Source: Pandoraea fibrosis
GTDB lineage: Bacteria; Pseudomonadota; Gammaproteobacteria; Burkholderiales; Burkholderiaceae
Length of the DNA: 64,000 nt
NCBI RefSeq assembly: GCF_000807775.2
Contig: NZ_CP047385.1
Coordinates: 1,550,001-1,614,000, forward strand
Reading direction: 5' to 3'
Shown: positions 59,354-64,000 of the stretch, piece after piece
Numbering within the stretch: the first letter of the stretch is position 1
Layout of the letters: every line of letters starts with the position of its first letter
The notes under the pieces: generated by a model
What the model was told of the DNA's origin: nothing
Database searches by the model: none
Seen by the model: only the letters and a program-made list of their open reading frames with translations
Translations under genes and position numbers: made by a program

Positions 59354-60610
59354 ATGTCATCGTGTCCATCGGCAAATGTCGCATGTGCGTCCGCGCCATC
59401 GAACGCTCAGCGTGTTGGCTATCGAATGCCGCGCGCGCTCGTCGCGATCTTCGCGTGTGCGGCCGGGCTGAGCGTGGCCAACGTCTATTACGCGCAGCCC
59501 TTGCTCGATGCACTGGCTGACGATTTCGGCATTTCGCGCGGCGCGGCGGGCGGCGTGGTCACCGCAACGCAGGCGGGGTGTGCGCTCGCGCTGCTGTTTC
59601 TCGTGCCGTTGGGCGACCAGTGGGAGCGACGGCGCCTCATGCTCGTACAACTCGCGCTGTTGACGCTGAGTTTGCTGACCGTGTCGGCGGCGACATCCGC
59701 CGTGGCGCTGCTGCTGGGCATGACGCTGGTCGGGATGCTGGGTACGGCGATGACACAGGGTCTGATCGCCTATGCGTCGAGTGCGGCGGGCGAGCACGAA
59801 CGTGGGCGCGTAGTGGGCGCCACACAGGGCGGCGTGGTCGTCGGTCTGCTGCTGGCGCGGGTCATGGCGGGCGCCATTGCCGACATTGCCGGCTGGCGTG
59901 GCGTGTATCTGACGTCGGCGGGCGCCATGCTGGTGCTCGGCGCTGTACTGTGGCGCGCGTTGCCGCGTCAGACGACGTCGGGCGCACAACACCGCTACGC
60001 CGTGCTGTTGGTGTCGATGTTCCGGCTGTTACGTGAAGAACGCACGTTGCAAATTCGCGGCACCATCGCGCTGCTGATGTTCATGGCATTCAGTATTTTC
60101 TGGAGCGCGTTAGTGCTGCCGCTGTCTGCCGCGCCGTTTCATTTCTCGCATACAAGCATTGGCGCATTCGGGCTGGTCGGCGCAGCGGGGGCGCTGGCGG
60201 CTGCGCGCGCCGGGTATTGGGCGGACCGGGGATGGGCGCAACGCACGACAGGCGTTTCGCTCGCCTTGCTGACGTTCTCGTGGCTGCCGCTGGCGGGCTT
60301 GCATGCGTCGCTTGGTTGGCTCGTTGCGGGGGTACTGCTGCTCGATCTGGCCGGGCAGGCGATTCATGTCACGAACCAGAGTCTGATCTTCGCCGCGCGC
60401 ACCGATGCGCCGAGTCGTCTGGTGGGCGCGTACATGTTGTTCTACGCGACCGGCAGTGGCTTGGGGGCGATGGCGGCGACGGCGACGTATGCGGCGTTCG
60501 GCTGGATCGGCGTGTGTTGGCTTGGGGCCGGCGTGAGTCTGGCCGCGCTCGCGTTCTGGGCGATGACGTTGCGCTGGATGCCGGGCGTCGACGCTGGCCG
60601 CAGATCCTAG
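59354..60610 (+). CDS. MFS transporter (drug-efflux-like)
   Basis: Inner-membrane transporter of 418 aa with about twelve helices. Start of the membrane part SVANVYYAQPLLDALADDFG is typical of a widespread MFS subgroup with multidrug or sugar-efflux members; the loop motif LGDQWERRRLML follows helix 2. GGGAGG precedes the ATG. Its stop interlocks with that of the convergent DUF2894 gene. Regulation by the HxlR gene is inferred from the divergent layout. Confidence 0.92.
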   Translation: MSSCPSANVACASAPSNAQRVGYRMPRALVAIFACAAGLSVANVYYAQPLLDALADDFGISRGAAGGVVTATQAGCALALLFLVPLGDQWERRRLMLVQLALLTLSLLTVSAATSAVALLLGMTLVGMLGTAMTQGLIAYASSAAGEHERGRVVGATQGGVVVGLLLARVMAGAIADIAGWRGVYLTSAGAMLVLGAVLWRALPRQTTSGAQHRYAVLLVSMFRLLREERTLQIRGTIALLMFMAFSIFWSALVLPLSAAPFHFSHTSIGAFGLVGAAGALAAARAGYWADRGWAQRTTGVSLALLTFSWLPLAGLHASLGWLVAGVLLLDLAGQAIHVTNQSLIFAARTDAPSRLVGAYMLFYATGSGLGAMAATATYAAFGWIGVCWLGAGVSLAALAFWAMTLRWMPGVDAGRRS

Positions 60611-61479
60611 CGAGCCTTCGCGCGAGAGGGCTTGGCGGCGGTGGTGGCGCGGGCTACGGGCTTGTTGCCGAGCACACCGGTCGTCTCCATATCTTCCAGC
60701 CACGACAGGGCGTCTGCGTGCCGCAGGAAGTGCCGCAGATAGTCGGGCGAGACGTCGTGCATGAGCGAGAGTGCGCGGTGCACGAGATGGCTGGAGTTGA
60801 GCGGCCCGGCGTTTTCCGGCACCTGGGCGAGCGACTGGCGGAGATTGCCGTCGGTGCTGAGTTTCGACCAGGTCTCGCGGAAGTATTCGAGGACATCGAG
60901 GTCCTCGAAGGCGTCATCTGTGGAGATGACCGTCGGCGTGACGGCAAGGGGCGCCGGCGTGTGCGGTACGGCGGATCGCTTCTGCAGCGTTGATGCCGCG
61001 CCCTCCGGTTGAGCGGTCTCGCGCGTCGGCGGGGGCTGGTCGGTCGACCTGGCGACTCGCAATTTGCGAGTCGCCGCCGGGGCGGTGCGCTCGCCTGTGC
61101 CGACACGTTGCGTGATGTCGGCCGTCAGTGTGGCGAGGGGCGATGCCGTCTGTGGCGAGGTCTGAGCGTCTTCGCTGGACGTCGCCGCGGGGCTGCCATG
61201 CAAACGCACGAATTCTGCGACGAGCGTATTCAACCGGTCGTCGAGCACGCGTCGCACATCGCCTGTGTACGACCGGCTGCGCAGCGCTAACGCCTCGATG
61301 CGATGAAACCGCGCAGGATCACGCTTATCGACGCCTTGCGCCCGCCACGCTGCGAGTTGCTCCGCACCCACATCCAGGGCTTCCTGTGCGGGCGCTTCTG
61401 CCGAGGCGTCTGTTGCCGCGTCTATCGCCGCGTTCATGGCGGCGGTCCCGGTGCTGTCGTCGCTCATCGCATCATGCAT
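60607..61479 (-). CDS. DUF2894 domain protein
   Basis: Cytoplasmic, mostly helical protein of 290 aa. An acidic/Ala-rich N terminus leads to EQLAAWRAQGVDKRDPARFHRIEALALRS, which is the DUF2894 start, followed by RRVLDDRLNTLVAEF. After a low-complexity centre (about 115-185) comes a conserved C-terminal block (EYFRETWSKLSTDGNLRQSLAQVPENAGPLNSSHLVHR). Its ATG overlaps the end of the OmpA-like gene by eight bases, so the two are coupled. No function is known; the operon setting suggests a cytoplasmic part of the same complex. Confidence 0.88.
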   Translation of the reverse strand: MHDAMSDDSTGTAAMNAAIDAATDASAEAPAQEALDVGAEQLAAWRAQGVDKRDPARFHRIEALALRSRSYTGDVRRVLDDRLNTLVAEFVRLHGSPAATSSEDAQTSPQTASPLATLTADITQRVGTGERTAPAATRKLRVARSTDQPPPTRETAQPEGAASTLQKRSAVPHTPAPLAVTPTVISTDDAFEDLDVLEYFRETWSKLSTDGNLRQSLAQVPENAGPLNSSHLVHRALSLMHDVSPDYLRHFLRHADALSWLEDMETTGVLGNKPVARATTAAKPSRAKAR

Positions 61480-62140
61480 GGGGCTTGCCTGCACTACTGG
61501 CGCTGCTGCGCGGCATCGGCGCGATTTCGACACGCCGGTTCTTCGCTCGACCGGTCTCGTCGGCGTTCGACGTGACGGGCTGTTCGGCACCAAACGCCGC
61601 CGAGAAAATCGACGATGGCGGCACGCCCGCAGCGATCAATTCACGGGTGACGGTCAGCGCACGCTGGGCTGACAACTCCCAGTTATCGGCGAATCGCCGG
61701 TTCGTTTCGCGCACCTGTTGATCGTCGGTGAAACCGCTGACCATGAGGATCTCGTCGCTCGCGCGCAGATAGGCGCTCAGCGGGCCGGCCAGGCTGCGCA
61801 GCACCTCACGTCCTTGCGGCTGCAACTGGTCGGAGTTCAGCGCAAACAGCACGTTGCCGCTGATACCGATGCGCCCGTTCACGAGCGTGACGCGGCCACC
61901 GGCGAGCGGCCCGGCCAGCGCTTGTTCAAGTGTCTGGCGGCGTTGCGTTTCGGCGCGTCGCTCTTTCACTTCGCGTTCGAGCTTGGCAGACAGTTCGATC
62001 TGCACGCCGATCACGCCCAGCATGATGAGGACGAACGCGCCGAGCATCACCGACATCAGATCGCCGAAGACGGCCCACGTCGGCGCTGCGGCGCCTACGT
62101 CGCCGCTGTCCGCGATGTCTGCGTCGAAGTCGTCCCTCAT
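61472..62140 (-). CDS. MotB/ZorB-like membrane protein with OmpA domain
   Basis: Protein of 222 aa with one N-terminal membrane helix (about residues 22-48) in the context PTWAVFGDLMSVMLGAFVLIML. The Asp at its start matches the proton-carrying Asp of MotB. A coiled linker (about 50-75) follows, then an OmpA/MotB peptidoglycan-binding domain (about 85-210): VSGFTDDQ, NWELSAQRALTV and AKNRRVEI. This is the build of MotB, TolR-type and ZorB stator subunits. It overlaps both neighbours in a leftward operon. Confidence 0.9.
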   Translation of the reverse strand: MRDDFDADIADSGDVGAAAPTWAVFGDLMSVMLGAFVLIMLGVIGVQIELSAKLEREVKERRAETQRRQTLEQALAGPLAGGRVTLVNGRIGISGNVLFALNSDQLQPQGREVLRSLAGPLSAYLRASDEILMVSGFTDDQQVRETNRRFADNWELSAQRALTVTRELIAAGVPPSSIFSAAFGAEQPVTSNADETGRAKNRRVEIAPMPRSSASSAGKPHA

Positions 62141-64000
62141 GCTGCCACGCTACCCGGTTGTGCCCGCGTTTGCGCCAGTTCCTGAAGGTTCTCAAGGATC
62201 TGCTTCTGCGACATCACACTCAGCTCCACCACTTCGCGCGCCTGCGCAACGTAGTAGCCAAGCTGTTCGTCGCTGCGTGCCATCGACTTGTCGAGCGCCG
62301 CTTCGATGCGTTGCAGATGCTCGAGCAATTGCGCATTCGATTCACCGAACGATTGCACGGCCGCCCCGAAGGCATCGCCAAGGCTGGCGATTTCCACGGC
62401 GCTGCCGGTGACCTGCGCCGACGCGGCGGTGAGCTTCTCGGTCTGCGCGGCGATGGCGTCACCCAGATTCGTGCTGGCACGCTCGAGCAATTGTGCGGAG
62501 GTCGTGACCAGTTCATCGACGGCGGCGCGTTGTTCGTTACCGGCGTGCTTGACGGTGTCGAGCAGTGTGCCCAGCGTGTCGAGCAATCGTGAGCGCTCTT
62601 CGAGCATGGCGTTATCGCGCACCATGCTGTCCGAGAGCTTCTGACGCAATTCGCCGATGATCTCGGCCGCAGCCTTCGGCGCTTCGGACGCGGTTTGCAC
62701 GAGACGCGAAATCTCGGCAATCGTGTCGCTGGCATTGGCGCGCGTCTGTTCGGACATTTCCAGCGCGGTGCGTGCGAGTGTGTCGCAGATCGCCTGTTGC
62801 TGGCTGGCCGTTTGCGCACCGACCTGCTGCCATTCCGAGCGTAGTGTGGCGAGTGTGCCTTCGAGCGTTTGCGTCCAGGCGGACAGTCGCTGTGTTTCGC
62901 GCTCGGCAGTGGCGTCGTGATGGGCGGTGCTGGCGGCGCTCAGGGCTTGCAGCAGCGACGCGCTGTGTTCCGTGAAGGCGTGGGTCGTTGCGGCCACGAG
63001 TTGCTGGTTGCCGTCGGCCAGGCGCTCGCTGGTGCGTGCGTGTTCTGCCACGGCGTCGCGCCACGTCTGCGCGACGTTTCCGGACACGGCGTCCATTTGC
63101 GCCGAAACACTTTGCAATAGCTGCGAAGCGCGCGTCTCGAAGGTGTCGGCGAAGCGTTCGAGCGCACCGGCCAGATCGCGTGTGAGCGCATCGTTTGCGG
63201 ACTGTTGCGCGGTGACGGCCTGCTTCCACTCGCCGGACACGACGGCGGCGGTCTCCGACACGTTGTGCATCGCGCCTTCGGTGCGTTGGCTGACGCCGTC
63301 GATCAAGTGCGCCGAGCGTTGCTCGAAGGTCTCGGTGAAGCGGGCGAGCGCGGCGGCAAGATCGGTGTTAAGCGTGGCGTTGGCTTGCTGTTGCAGCGCG
63401 ATCGATTGATCCCACGCCTGTGCAACGCGCTCGTGCGCCCCGGTGACATTTCCGCTGGCGGCATCGAGCTTGGTCGCAACGTCGGCAAGCAAGGCGTCGG
63501 CGCGCGATTCGAACGTCTGTGCGAAACGTTCCAACGCTGTGCCGAGATTTTGCGTGAGGGCGTCGTGCGAGCGCTGTTGCTGGGCGAGCGCTTGTTCCCA
63601 TGCCTGGGCAACGGTGGTCTGCGCCGTTGTGATGCTGCCCGTGGCGCTATCGAGACGCGTGGTGACGTCGGCAAGCAGATCGGCCGAGCGGGTCTCGAAG
63701 GCCTGAGCGAATTGCGCGAGCGTTGCGCCAAGTTCCTTGGCGAGCGCATCGTTGGTCTGTTGTTGTGCCGCCAGCGAGGTCTCCCACGTTTGTGCGACAC
63801 CGGCGTGCGAGGCGGTGACCTGTCCCGTCGCGGTTTCGAGGCGCGTAGCGACCTCGTCGACGAGCCTGGCCGAACGAGTCTCGAAGGTTTGTGAGAATTG
63901 AACCAGTGCGCTGCCGAGTTCCTTGGCGAGCGAATCGTTGGTGCGCTGCTGCGCAGCGAGCGAGGTCTCCCATGTCTGTGCGACATTGGCATGGGCGCTG
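62137..64000 (-). CDS. DUF802 repeat protein, 5' part cut by window end
   Basis: Only the C-terminal about 620 residues are visible; the reading frame is open to the window edge. It consists of 62-residue helical repeats (start marked by QTWETSLAAQQ, then NDALAKEL, FETRSA, then LLADV) followed by a non-repeated helical tail (about 400 residues; EISRLVQTASEAPKAAAEIIGEL, SMVRDNAMLEERSRLLDTLGTLLDTV). In known homologues the missing N terminus carries membrane helices of the MotA/ExbB kind. The next gene overlaps by four bases. Function unknown. Confidence 0.85.
   Translation of the reverse strand, partial: SAHANVAQTWETSLAAQQRTNDSLAKELGSALVQFSQTFETRSARLVDEVATRLETATGQVTASHAGVAQTWETSLAAQQQTNDALAKELGATLAQFAQAFETRSADLLADVTTRLDSATGSITTAQTTVAQAWEQALAQQQRSHDALTQNLGTALERFAQTFESRADALLADVATKLDAASGNVTGAHERVAQAWDQSIALQQQANATLNTDLAAALARFTETFEQRSAHLIDGVSQRTEGAMHNVSETAAVVSGEWKQAVTAQQSANDALTRDLAGALERFADTFETRASQLLQSVSAQMDAVSGNVAQTWRDAVAEHARTSERLADGNQQLVAATTHAFTEHSASLLQALSAASTAHHDATAERETQRLSAWTQTLEGTLATLRSEWQQVGAQTASQQQAICDTLARTALEMSEQTRANASDTIAEISRLVQTASEAPKAAAEIIGELRQKLSDSMVRDNAMLEERSRLLDTLGTLLDTVKHAGNEQRAAVDELVTTSAQLLERASTNLGDAIAAQTEKLTAASAQVTGSAVEIASLGDAFGAAVQSFGESNAQLLEHLQRIEAALDKSMARSDEQLGYYVAQAREVVELSVMSQKQILENLQELAQTRAQPGSVAA
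63226..64000 (-). repeat. 186-bp tandem repeats inside the DUF802 gene
   Basis: The Trp codon that opens each unit recurs at 63970, 63784, 63598, 63412 and 63226, exactly 186 bp (62 codons) apart; a shorter unit (165 bp) follows towards 63061. Units are similar at protein level but have many synonymous and some replacement changes, so they are old repeats. More units lie beyond the window. Confidence 0.9.

Follow-up and report, generated by a model that had tools for sequence, protein, structure and literature searches.

The chromosome of Pandoraea fibrosis (Burkholderiaceae) carries an operon with the parts of a membrane motor, and the locus raises the question of whether this operon, whose relatives occur in nearly every genome of the genus, serves to defend the cell against phages or to look after its envelope. 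The operon lies at the end of the window, that is, the whole stretch of 64,000 nucleotides that was analyzed (positions 1,550,001-1,614,000 of a one-contig genome of 5.59 Mb; operon coordinates follow the numbering of the window), and continues beyond it. Judged by sequence, its four proteins almost certainly make up a Zorya type III system. This chromosomal operon probably acts as a phage-triggered, ion-driven motor, and its main native job is likely to be phage defense.

Identity and Organization of the Operon

The type III models of PADLOC match all four proteins, with scores from 295 to 1429 bits (Table 1). Read 5' to 3' on the minus strand, the genes encode DUF3348, DUF802 (ZorA), an OmpA protein (ZorB) and DUF2894, and the features by which Zorya type III is recognized are present: a ZorA with a MotA/ExbB-type membrane part and a tail, a ZorB with an Asp-bearing helix and an OmpA domain, and adjoining DUF3348 and DUF2894 genes. 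Neighboring genes overlap by 20 bases (DUF3348/DUF802), 4 bases (DUF802 ends at 62137 and the open reading frame (ORF) of the OmpA protein starts at 62140) and 8 bases (that ORF runs to 61472 and DUF2894 begins at 61479). The initial annotation, made from the window alone, had described three ORFs with the 4- and 8-base overlaps, and all are present on the minus strand; the DUF3348 gene lies outside the window and was hence invisible to that reader, who missed the type III name. The DUF2894 start is based on database homologs, which begin at 61479 or later, and for this reason a TTG-started ORF reaching to 61593 is probably over-extended; the PADLOC and Pfam scores of DUF2894 were obtained on the longer ORF version.

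The arrangement was followed through 81 loci, our own plus the 80 best among 498 relatives retrieved via DUF2894, a set in which close relatives are over-represented. The order DUF802-OmpA-DUF2894 is kept in all 81, which argues that the gene arrangement is not due to chance. DUF3348 is also present in 79; in the two loci where it is not visible, ZorA itself is truncated by the contig end.

Table 1. Features of the Zorya type III operon of P. fibrosis, in window coordinates (aa, amino acids; AF2, AlphaFold2; pN/pS, ratio of nonsynonymous to synonymous change).
Feature	Coordinates	Strand	Details
DUF3348 gene	65144-65941, beyond the window	-	265 aa; directly upstream of DUF802; PF11828 266 bits, PADLOC 295 bits
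ZorA type III (DUF802 protein)	62137..64000 in the window, to 65163 outside	-	1008 aa; PADLOC ZorA3 1429 bits
DUF802 tail modules, 62-aa register (186 bases)	62950..64000 in the window	-	seven matches over the cut-off in the gene
ZorB type III (OmpA protein)	61472..62140	-	222 aa; PADLOC ZorB3 371 bits
Asp27 codon of ZorB, presumed ion-carrying Asp	62060..62062	-	residue kept in 81/81 loci
OmpA-like peptidoglycan-binding domain of ZorB, residues 98-202	61535..61849	-	PF00691 66 bits
DUF2894 protein, Zorya type III accessory	60607..61479	-	290 aa; PF11445 163 bits; PADLOC PDLC00653 329 bits
Constrained DUF2894 C-terminal domain, residues 186-268	60676..60924	-	pN/pS and AF2 model

Zorya type III is an established name. 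It was given to 6,401 pairs of zor genes flanked by DUF3348 and DUF2894 genes, and when such an operon from Stenotrophomonas nitritireducens was expressed in Escherichia coli, at least one phage was reported to plaque less efficiently, and culture collapse was prevented below a multiplicity of infection of 0.1 (Payne et al., 2021; PMC8565338). The same four families co-occur in the present operon, the tested representative being from Stenotrophomonas, and the two proteins added to the motor were proposed in that paper as regulators of ZorAB. Type III is also among the PADLOC hits reported from a Variovorax (PMC11953036), and a Zorya system is mentioned for Cupriavidus necator H16 (PMC12645576). 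Since type III has been named and tested in print, the operon represents a known kind of system, and the initial annotation was mistaken in calling its function undescribed; nor does DUF2894 stand in place of the known Zorya effectors, as had been supposed, for DUF2894 and DUF3348 are the type III set (PMC8565338). What was not found in the open-access literature, although an account elsewhere is possible, is a description of the core-like spread, the defense-free flanks, the modular tail and the pattern of constraint that are set out below. For type III, the part of PMC8565338 drawn on here describes neither tail-length modules nor core-like status. In naming the accessory proteins, PADLOC-DB (models PDLC00652-PDLC00658) calls DUF2894 "ZorF" ("ZorF3") and DUF3348 "ZorG", which is the opposite of the usage in PMC8565338 and PMC11890865, where DUF3348 is ZorF and DUF2894 is ZorG.

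The operon shares with Zorya types I and II the ZorA-ZorB core, the Asp in the ZorB helix, the peptidoglycan-binding domain and the long ZorA tail. Those types carry ZorC and ZorD (a helicase) or ZorE (a nickase), whereas among the immediate neighbors here neither ZorC with ZorD nor ZorE was found beside zorAB; instead, Pfam identifies major facilitator superfamily (MFS) and HxlR genes on the downstream side and a further MFS gene on the upstream side. Neither in these neighbors nor in the operon itself was a nuclease or helicase recognized. The MotAB flagellar stator has the same membrane-motor logic and peptidoglycan anchoring, but it lacks the long modular cytoplasmic tail and the two extra proteins seen here, and no match to MotA was obtained in Pfam or among solved structures.

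The ZorA-ZorB Motor

ZorB has a single hydrophobic segment (residues 21-54) that contains Asp27 in the motif WAVFGDLMSV and is followed by the OmpA domain, a layout that had been read correctly from the window. The tail, the Asp and peptidoglycan binding are required in Zorya types I and II, in which ZorB D24 is crucial for defense (PMC11890865). A ZorB3 profile matched 65 solved chains at E<=0.001, and among the 60 of these that were listed, MotB and others align over the OmpA part and the linker preceding it, while only two ZorB chains align across the membrane helix too (8vvn_B, positions 8-205, E 2.2e-7; 8qyd_F, positions 10-199, E 2.9e-5). Used as a single query, the OmpA protein sequence matched MotB structures, the best being 3khn_A (E 3.1e-17), and no ZorB chain at E<=0.001. 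NCBIfam assigns the protein to a "hypothetical protein" family, PRK09040.1, with 373 bits.

The N terminus of the DUF802 protein, read from the whole genome, starts MTRYLVDLVAFIAG, and its hydrophobic segments span residues 1-53 (with room for two helices), 98-130 and 162-180, which are read as four putative MotA-like membrane helices. When a profile built from the N-terminal third of 18 relatives was compared with solved structures, the sole match at E<0.001 was 8vvn_C, a type I ZorA from Shewanella (E 9.1e-5), and this ZorA3 profile matched no MotA, ExbB or TolQ chain at E<=1. Thr162-Ser163 of ZorA is kept in at least 98% of 79 loci. The initial annotation had expected a MotA/ExbB-type membrane part in the missing portion of the DUF802 gene and would have given up the ZorA-ZorB arrangement in the absence of such helices. 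With the full gene at hand, the PADLOC ZorA3 and 8vvn_C matches bear out this expectation, and the arrangement stands, with the DUF802 protein as ZorA and the OmpA protein as ZorB.

Distribution and Genomic Context

The spread of the system was followed through DUF2894 in a family sample of 249 genomes from 25 genera, an order sample of 200 genomes and a class sample of 274 genomes. Within the own genus, 31 of 32 genomes carry DUF2894, and the lone miss is a genome of 1.2 Mb that is strongly reduced against the 5-6 Mb typical of the genus. Three further genera, picked for their many positives in the family sample, have it in 59 of 61, 55 of 58 and 51 of 60 genomes, nearly always in single copy. 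Such single-copy presence in almost every genome sampled from four related genera is core-like. Over the whole family DUF2894 is present in 171 of 249 genomes and 11 of 25 genera, leaving 78 genomes and 14 genera without it; many of these absences fall in small genomes and others in genomes of 4 to 8 Mb. Thus the earlier suggestion of a core gene set in Burkholderiaceae comes close to the truth for several genera and fails for the family, in which 14 of 25 genera lack it. DUF3348 likewise occurs in 171 of the 249 genomes, and these are the same genomes when the lists are compared by eye. As the sole comparison family, the cyclase family PF18144 of the cyclic-oligonucleotide-based anti-phage signaling system (CBASS) was followed in the same 249 genomes and found in 25, with scores above the cut-off in 21. 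The order sample gave DUF2894 in 7 of 200 genomes (three from the own family, one below the cut-off) and the class sample in 7 of 274, our own among them. DUF2894 (PF11445) also scored above the cut-off in a control genome, that of the distant Gram-positive Corynebacterium glutamicum, in which DUF3348 did not; the hit could be fortuitous or unrelated.

A set of three genes, lying only a few genes away on the downstream side, is shared by 17 of 20 Pandoraea loci, and two of the three we take, by eye from the sequence, to be trmB and uppP. Two of the remaining loci end too early, and Pandoraea terrae (L063) is the only one long enough to judge that has a different neighborhood. The operon occupies at least four locations in Paraburkholderia, each common to several species, and no neighboring gene family was seen to be kept across genera. 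In the ZorA-ZorB tree, Pandoraea (19 of 19 rows) and Variovorax (4 of 4) each form one clade, our own sequence falls within the Pandoraea clade, Cupriavidus is scattered, and one Ralstonia falls inside Cupriavidus. For our DUF2894 and DUF3348 proteins, the best matches among named proteins are from Pandoraea. The type III operon of Rhodanobacter sp. C01 (L101), a member of another order, is placed next to Caballeronia on a long branch (modest support, 86/79), a position that suggests transfer. On the basis of the tree and the shifting locations, inheritance appears to be mainly vertical, with occasional transfer or relocation.

The flanks were scanned over two genes per side at 37 representative loci, covering 120 of 143 flank genes, which had been called with a home-made codon-usage caller and may include false ORFs. 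No recurrent defense family emerged, as 44 PADLOC families were matched across the 120 genes, each by one gene at most, and several of these families are helicase models. The commonest of 145 Pfam families were MFS transporters (8 genes), TetR (5), and TctC, LysR and histidine kinase domains (3 each). Within this reach of two genes per side, the operon does not belong to a defense island. Relatives of DUF2894 were found on 27 of 72,556 plasmid records, the smallest of 366 kb, with 20 of the 27 non-mobilizable and 7 mobilizable. Among 50,697 phage records no match spanned 80% of ZorB, and nine hits covered 50-58% of it, all within residues 86-221, the OmpA region. These searches make it unlikely that the operon travels as cargo of phages or small plasmids.

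Sequence Constraint and the Accessory Proteins

Selective constraint is distributed unevenly over the operon. Pairwise comparisons of 18 Pandoraea loci gave median pN/pS values of 0.086 (ZorA motor part), 0.084 (ZorB), 0.105 (final 270 residues of ZorA), 0.156 (DUF3348) and 0.44 (whole of DUF2894), and a range of 0.118 to 0.250 for nine families of flanking genes, each represented by 12 to 17 loci. The motor genes, meaning the ZorA motor part and ZorB, are therefore constrained at least as strongly as the genes that flank them. Within DUF2894 (19 Pandoraea loci, 171 pairs) the C-terminal domain is nearly frozen, with a median pN/pS of 0.032 and 97.6% amino acid identity, while values reach 0.41 in the N-terminal domain, 0.67 in the linker, 0.78 in the leader and 0.39 in the last 22 residues. 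This mosaic suggests one fixed binding face joined to a free tether. The fast change in the remainder of the protein may reflect relaxed or diversifying evolution, and is no proof of an arms race.

Neither DUF2894 nor DUF3348 has a hydrophobic segment, and an enzyme fold was recognized in neither, the model of DUF2894 being poor. The AF2 model of DUF2894 places helices in the C-terminal domain, with a predicted local distance difference test score of 73-87 per ten-residue block from residue 191.

A Modular ZorA Tail

The cytoplasmic tail of our ZorA is built from repeated units, as seen in autocorrelation peaks at 62, 124 and 186 residues. The most N-terminal of its seven module matches lies outside the window at 64045-64203, and the next is cut by the window end. 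Tail length was measured across loci as the number of residues between a motor landmark, AFGTS, and a landmark near the end, RSD[DE]QL; nine loci that were missed by the first landmark pattern were recovered with a looser one, and a ZorA start that is probably mis-set in one locus (L067) leaves the distances unaffected. In 79 loci the landmark distance runs from 439 to 929 residues. Exact sums of 62 and 87 separate 69 of the 79 from a form of 494 residues that is shared by 14 loci, and all 19 Pandoraea distances equal 556 plus a multiple of 62. Of the 436 values between 0 and 435 inclusive, only 25 can be written as sums of 62 and 87, so the fit is far from chance, with the reservation that the loci share ancestry and do not count as independent. 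For the ten loci that do not fit, the differences are 113 and 320 (two loci each), 73, 91, 153, 171, 178 and -55, and by autocorrelation three of them have 80-residue repeats and a fourth a weaker 113-residue repeat. Module lengths are 62 residues in Pandoraea and 87 in many Paraburkholderia and Caballeronia, with 80, 113 and 149 also found.

Length has changed often, at least 7 times within Pandoraea and 37 times over all 79 loci when minimum changes are counted on the tree. Adjacent units of our gene are 55-74% identical in DNA, and in Paraburkholderia guartelaensis (L104) three of four adjacent pairs are about 90% identical, which points to recent duplication as the source of the units there. 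Component size is stated to be well conserved inside each Zorya family (PMC11890865, in the part considered here), whereas the tail length of type III ZorA varies widely. The idea that the tail stays in hydrophobic phase whatever the module length (62/17 = 3.65, 80/22 = 3.64, 87/24 = 3.63 and 113/31 = 3.65 residues per turn) was set aside; the test is partly circular because the repeat period itself forces spectral peaks, and the hydrophobicity spectra of the tails differ between loci, with best peaks from 3.605 to 3.71.

Phage Defense or Envelope Maintenance

The components and their order, their co-inheritance, the conserved Asp and motor residues, the modular tail and the predicted helical partners can be read from the sequences, and by analogy with Zorya types I and II they would work as follows. 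Five ZorA and two ZorB subunits would form an ion-driven rotary motor that is kept inactive as long as no entering phage perturbs the wall. On such a perturbation ZorB would grip the peptidoglycan, ions would pass Asp27 and ZorA would rotate, with the tail transmitting rotation into the cytoplasm. More tentatively, DUF3348 may dock at the conserved end of the ZorA tail as an adaptor or regulator, as may DUF2894 through its frozen C-terminal domain, and the fast-changing part of DUF2894 may be a flexible tether. An ion leak or a recruited host enzyme are candidates for the step that stops the phage.

Several observations weigh against this account. For the identification itself, the DUF802 protein is not matched by the Pfam MotA/ExbB family PF01618 at E<=1, and the NCBIfam ZorA models match it below their cut-offs only (best 46 bits of 100), so that the link to Zorya is easily missed. 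For a role in defense, a near-universal single-copy spread, strong constraint and the lack of defense neighbors are unusual for a defense system. The type III phage assay relied on plasmid expression in a foreign host (PMC8565338), and a functional test of any Burkholderiaceae type III operon was not found in the literature searched. When Burkholderia cenocepacia K56-2 was infected with phage, transcription shifted only at the start of the type III operon, in its first gene or first two genes, and the authors' list of transcriptionally active systems, in the part of the paper used here, omits type III (PMC12584637).

The chief alternative is a housekeeping motor of the Burkholderiaceae envelope that senses or corrects cell-wall damage, the phage protection in E. 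coli being a side effect of the same sensing under overexpression. Such a motor would fit the near-universal DUF2894 of the own and the three chosen genera, set against 25 of 249 genomes for the CBASS cyclase, the pN/pS of the ZorA motor part and ZorB below all nine flanking families compared, the three downstream neighbors shared by 17 of 20 Pandoraea loci and the lack of a recurrent defense family in 120 flanking genes. It is harder to reconcile with an operon that relocates (at least four locations in Paraburkholderia), crosses genera (Rhodanobacter, Ralstonia), is missing in 78 of 249 genomes and 14 of 25 genera of the family, including genomes of 5-8 Mb, and is rare in the rest of the order (7/200) and class (7/274), and with the phage protection measured for a relative (PMC8565338). 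On balance, this housekeeping reading is unlikely. A MotAB/TolQR-type motor unrelated to Zorya, alike merely because 5:2 motors resemble each other, could account for the MotB matches of the single OmpA sequence, its lack of a ZorB chain at E<=0.001 and the PRK09040.1 assignment, but it is highly improbable given the high scores of all four type III models, a ZorA3 profile that among solved structures matches ZorA and, at E<=1, no MotA, ExbB or TolQ chain, and the two ZorB chains that alone, among the 60 of 65 listed, are matched from before the membrane helix.

Phage-triggered defense thus remains the preferred reading. A more speculative possibility, which we regard as doubtful yet worth stating, is that type III in Burkholderiaceae is a nearly fixed, single-copy envelope motor, and not mobile defense cargo, which keeps constant watch over the wall with its tail as a modular ruler and for which phage entry is one trigger. 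Steps of whole modules would let the length of such a tail change often and leave the rotating bundle unbroken.

Many anti-phage systems come and go among strains, and a motor in the core genome would represent either innate immunity or wall surveillance turned core. While the system itself is published, its core-like status and modular tail make the question of defense versus envelope testable, and the natural series of tail lengths, with ZorA proteins of about 698, 872 and 1046 amino acids among them, lends itself to studying how rotation is transmitted from the ZorA tail to its partners. The shortest ZorA among the 19 measured in Pandoraea is that of P. terrae, at 760 amino acids.

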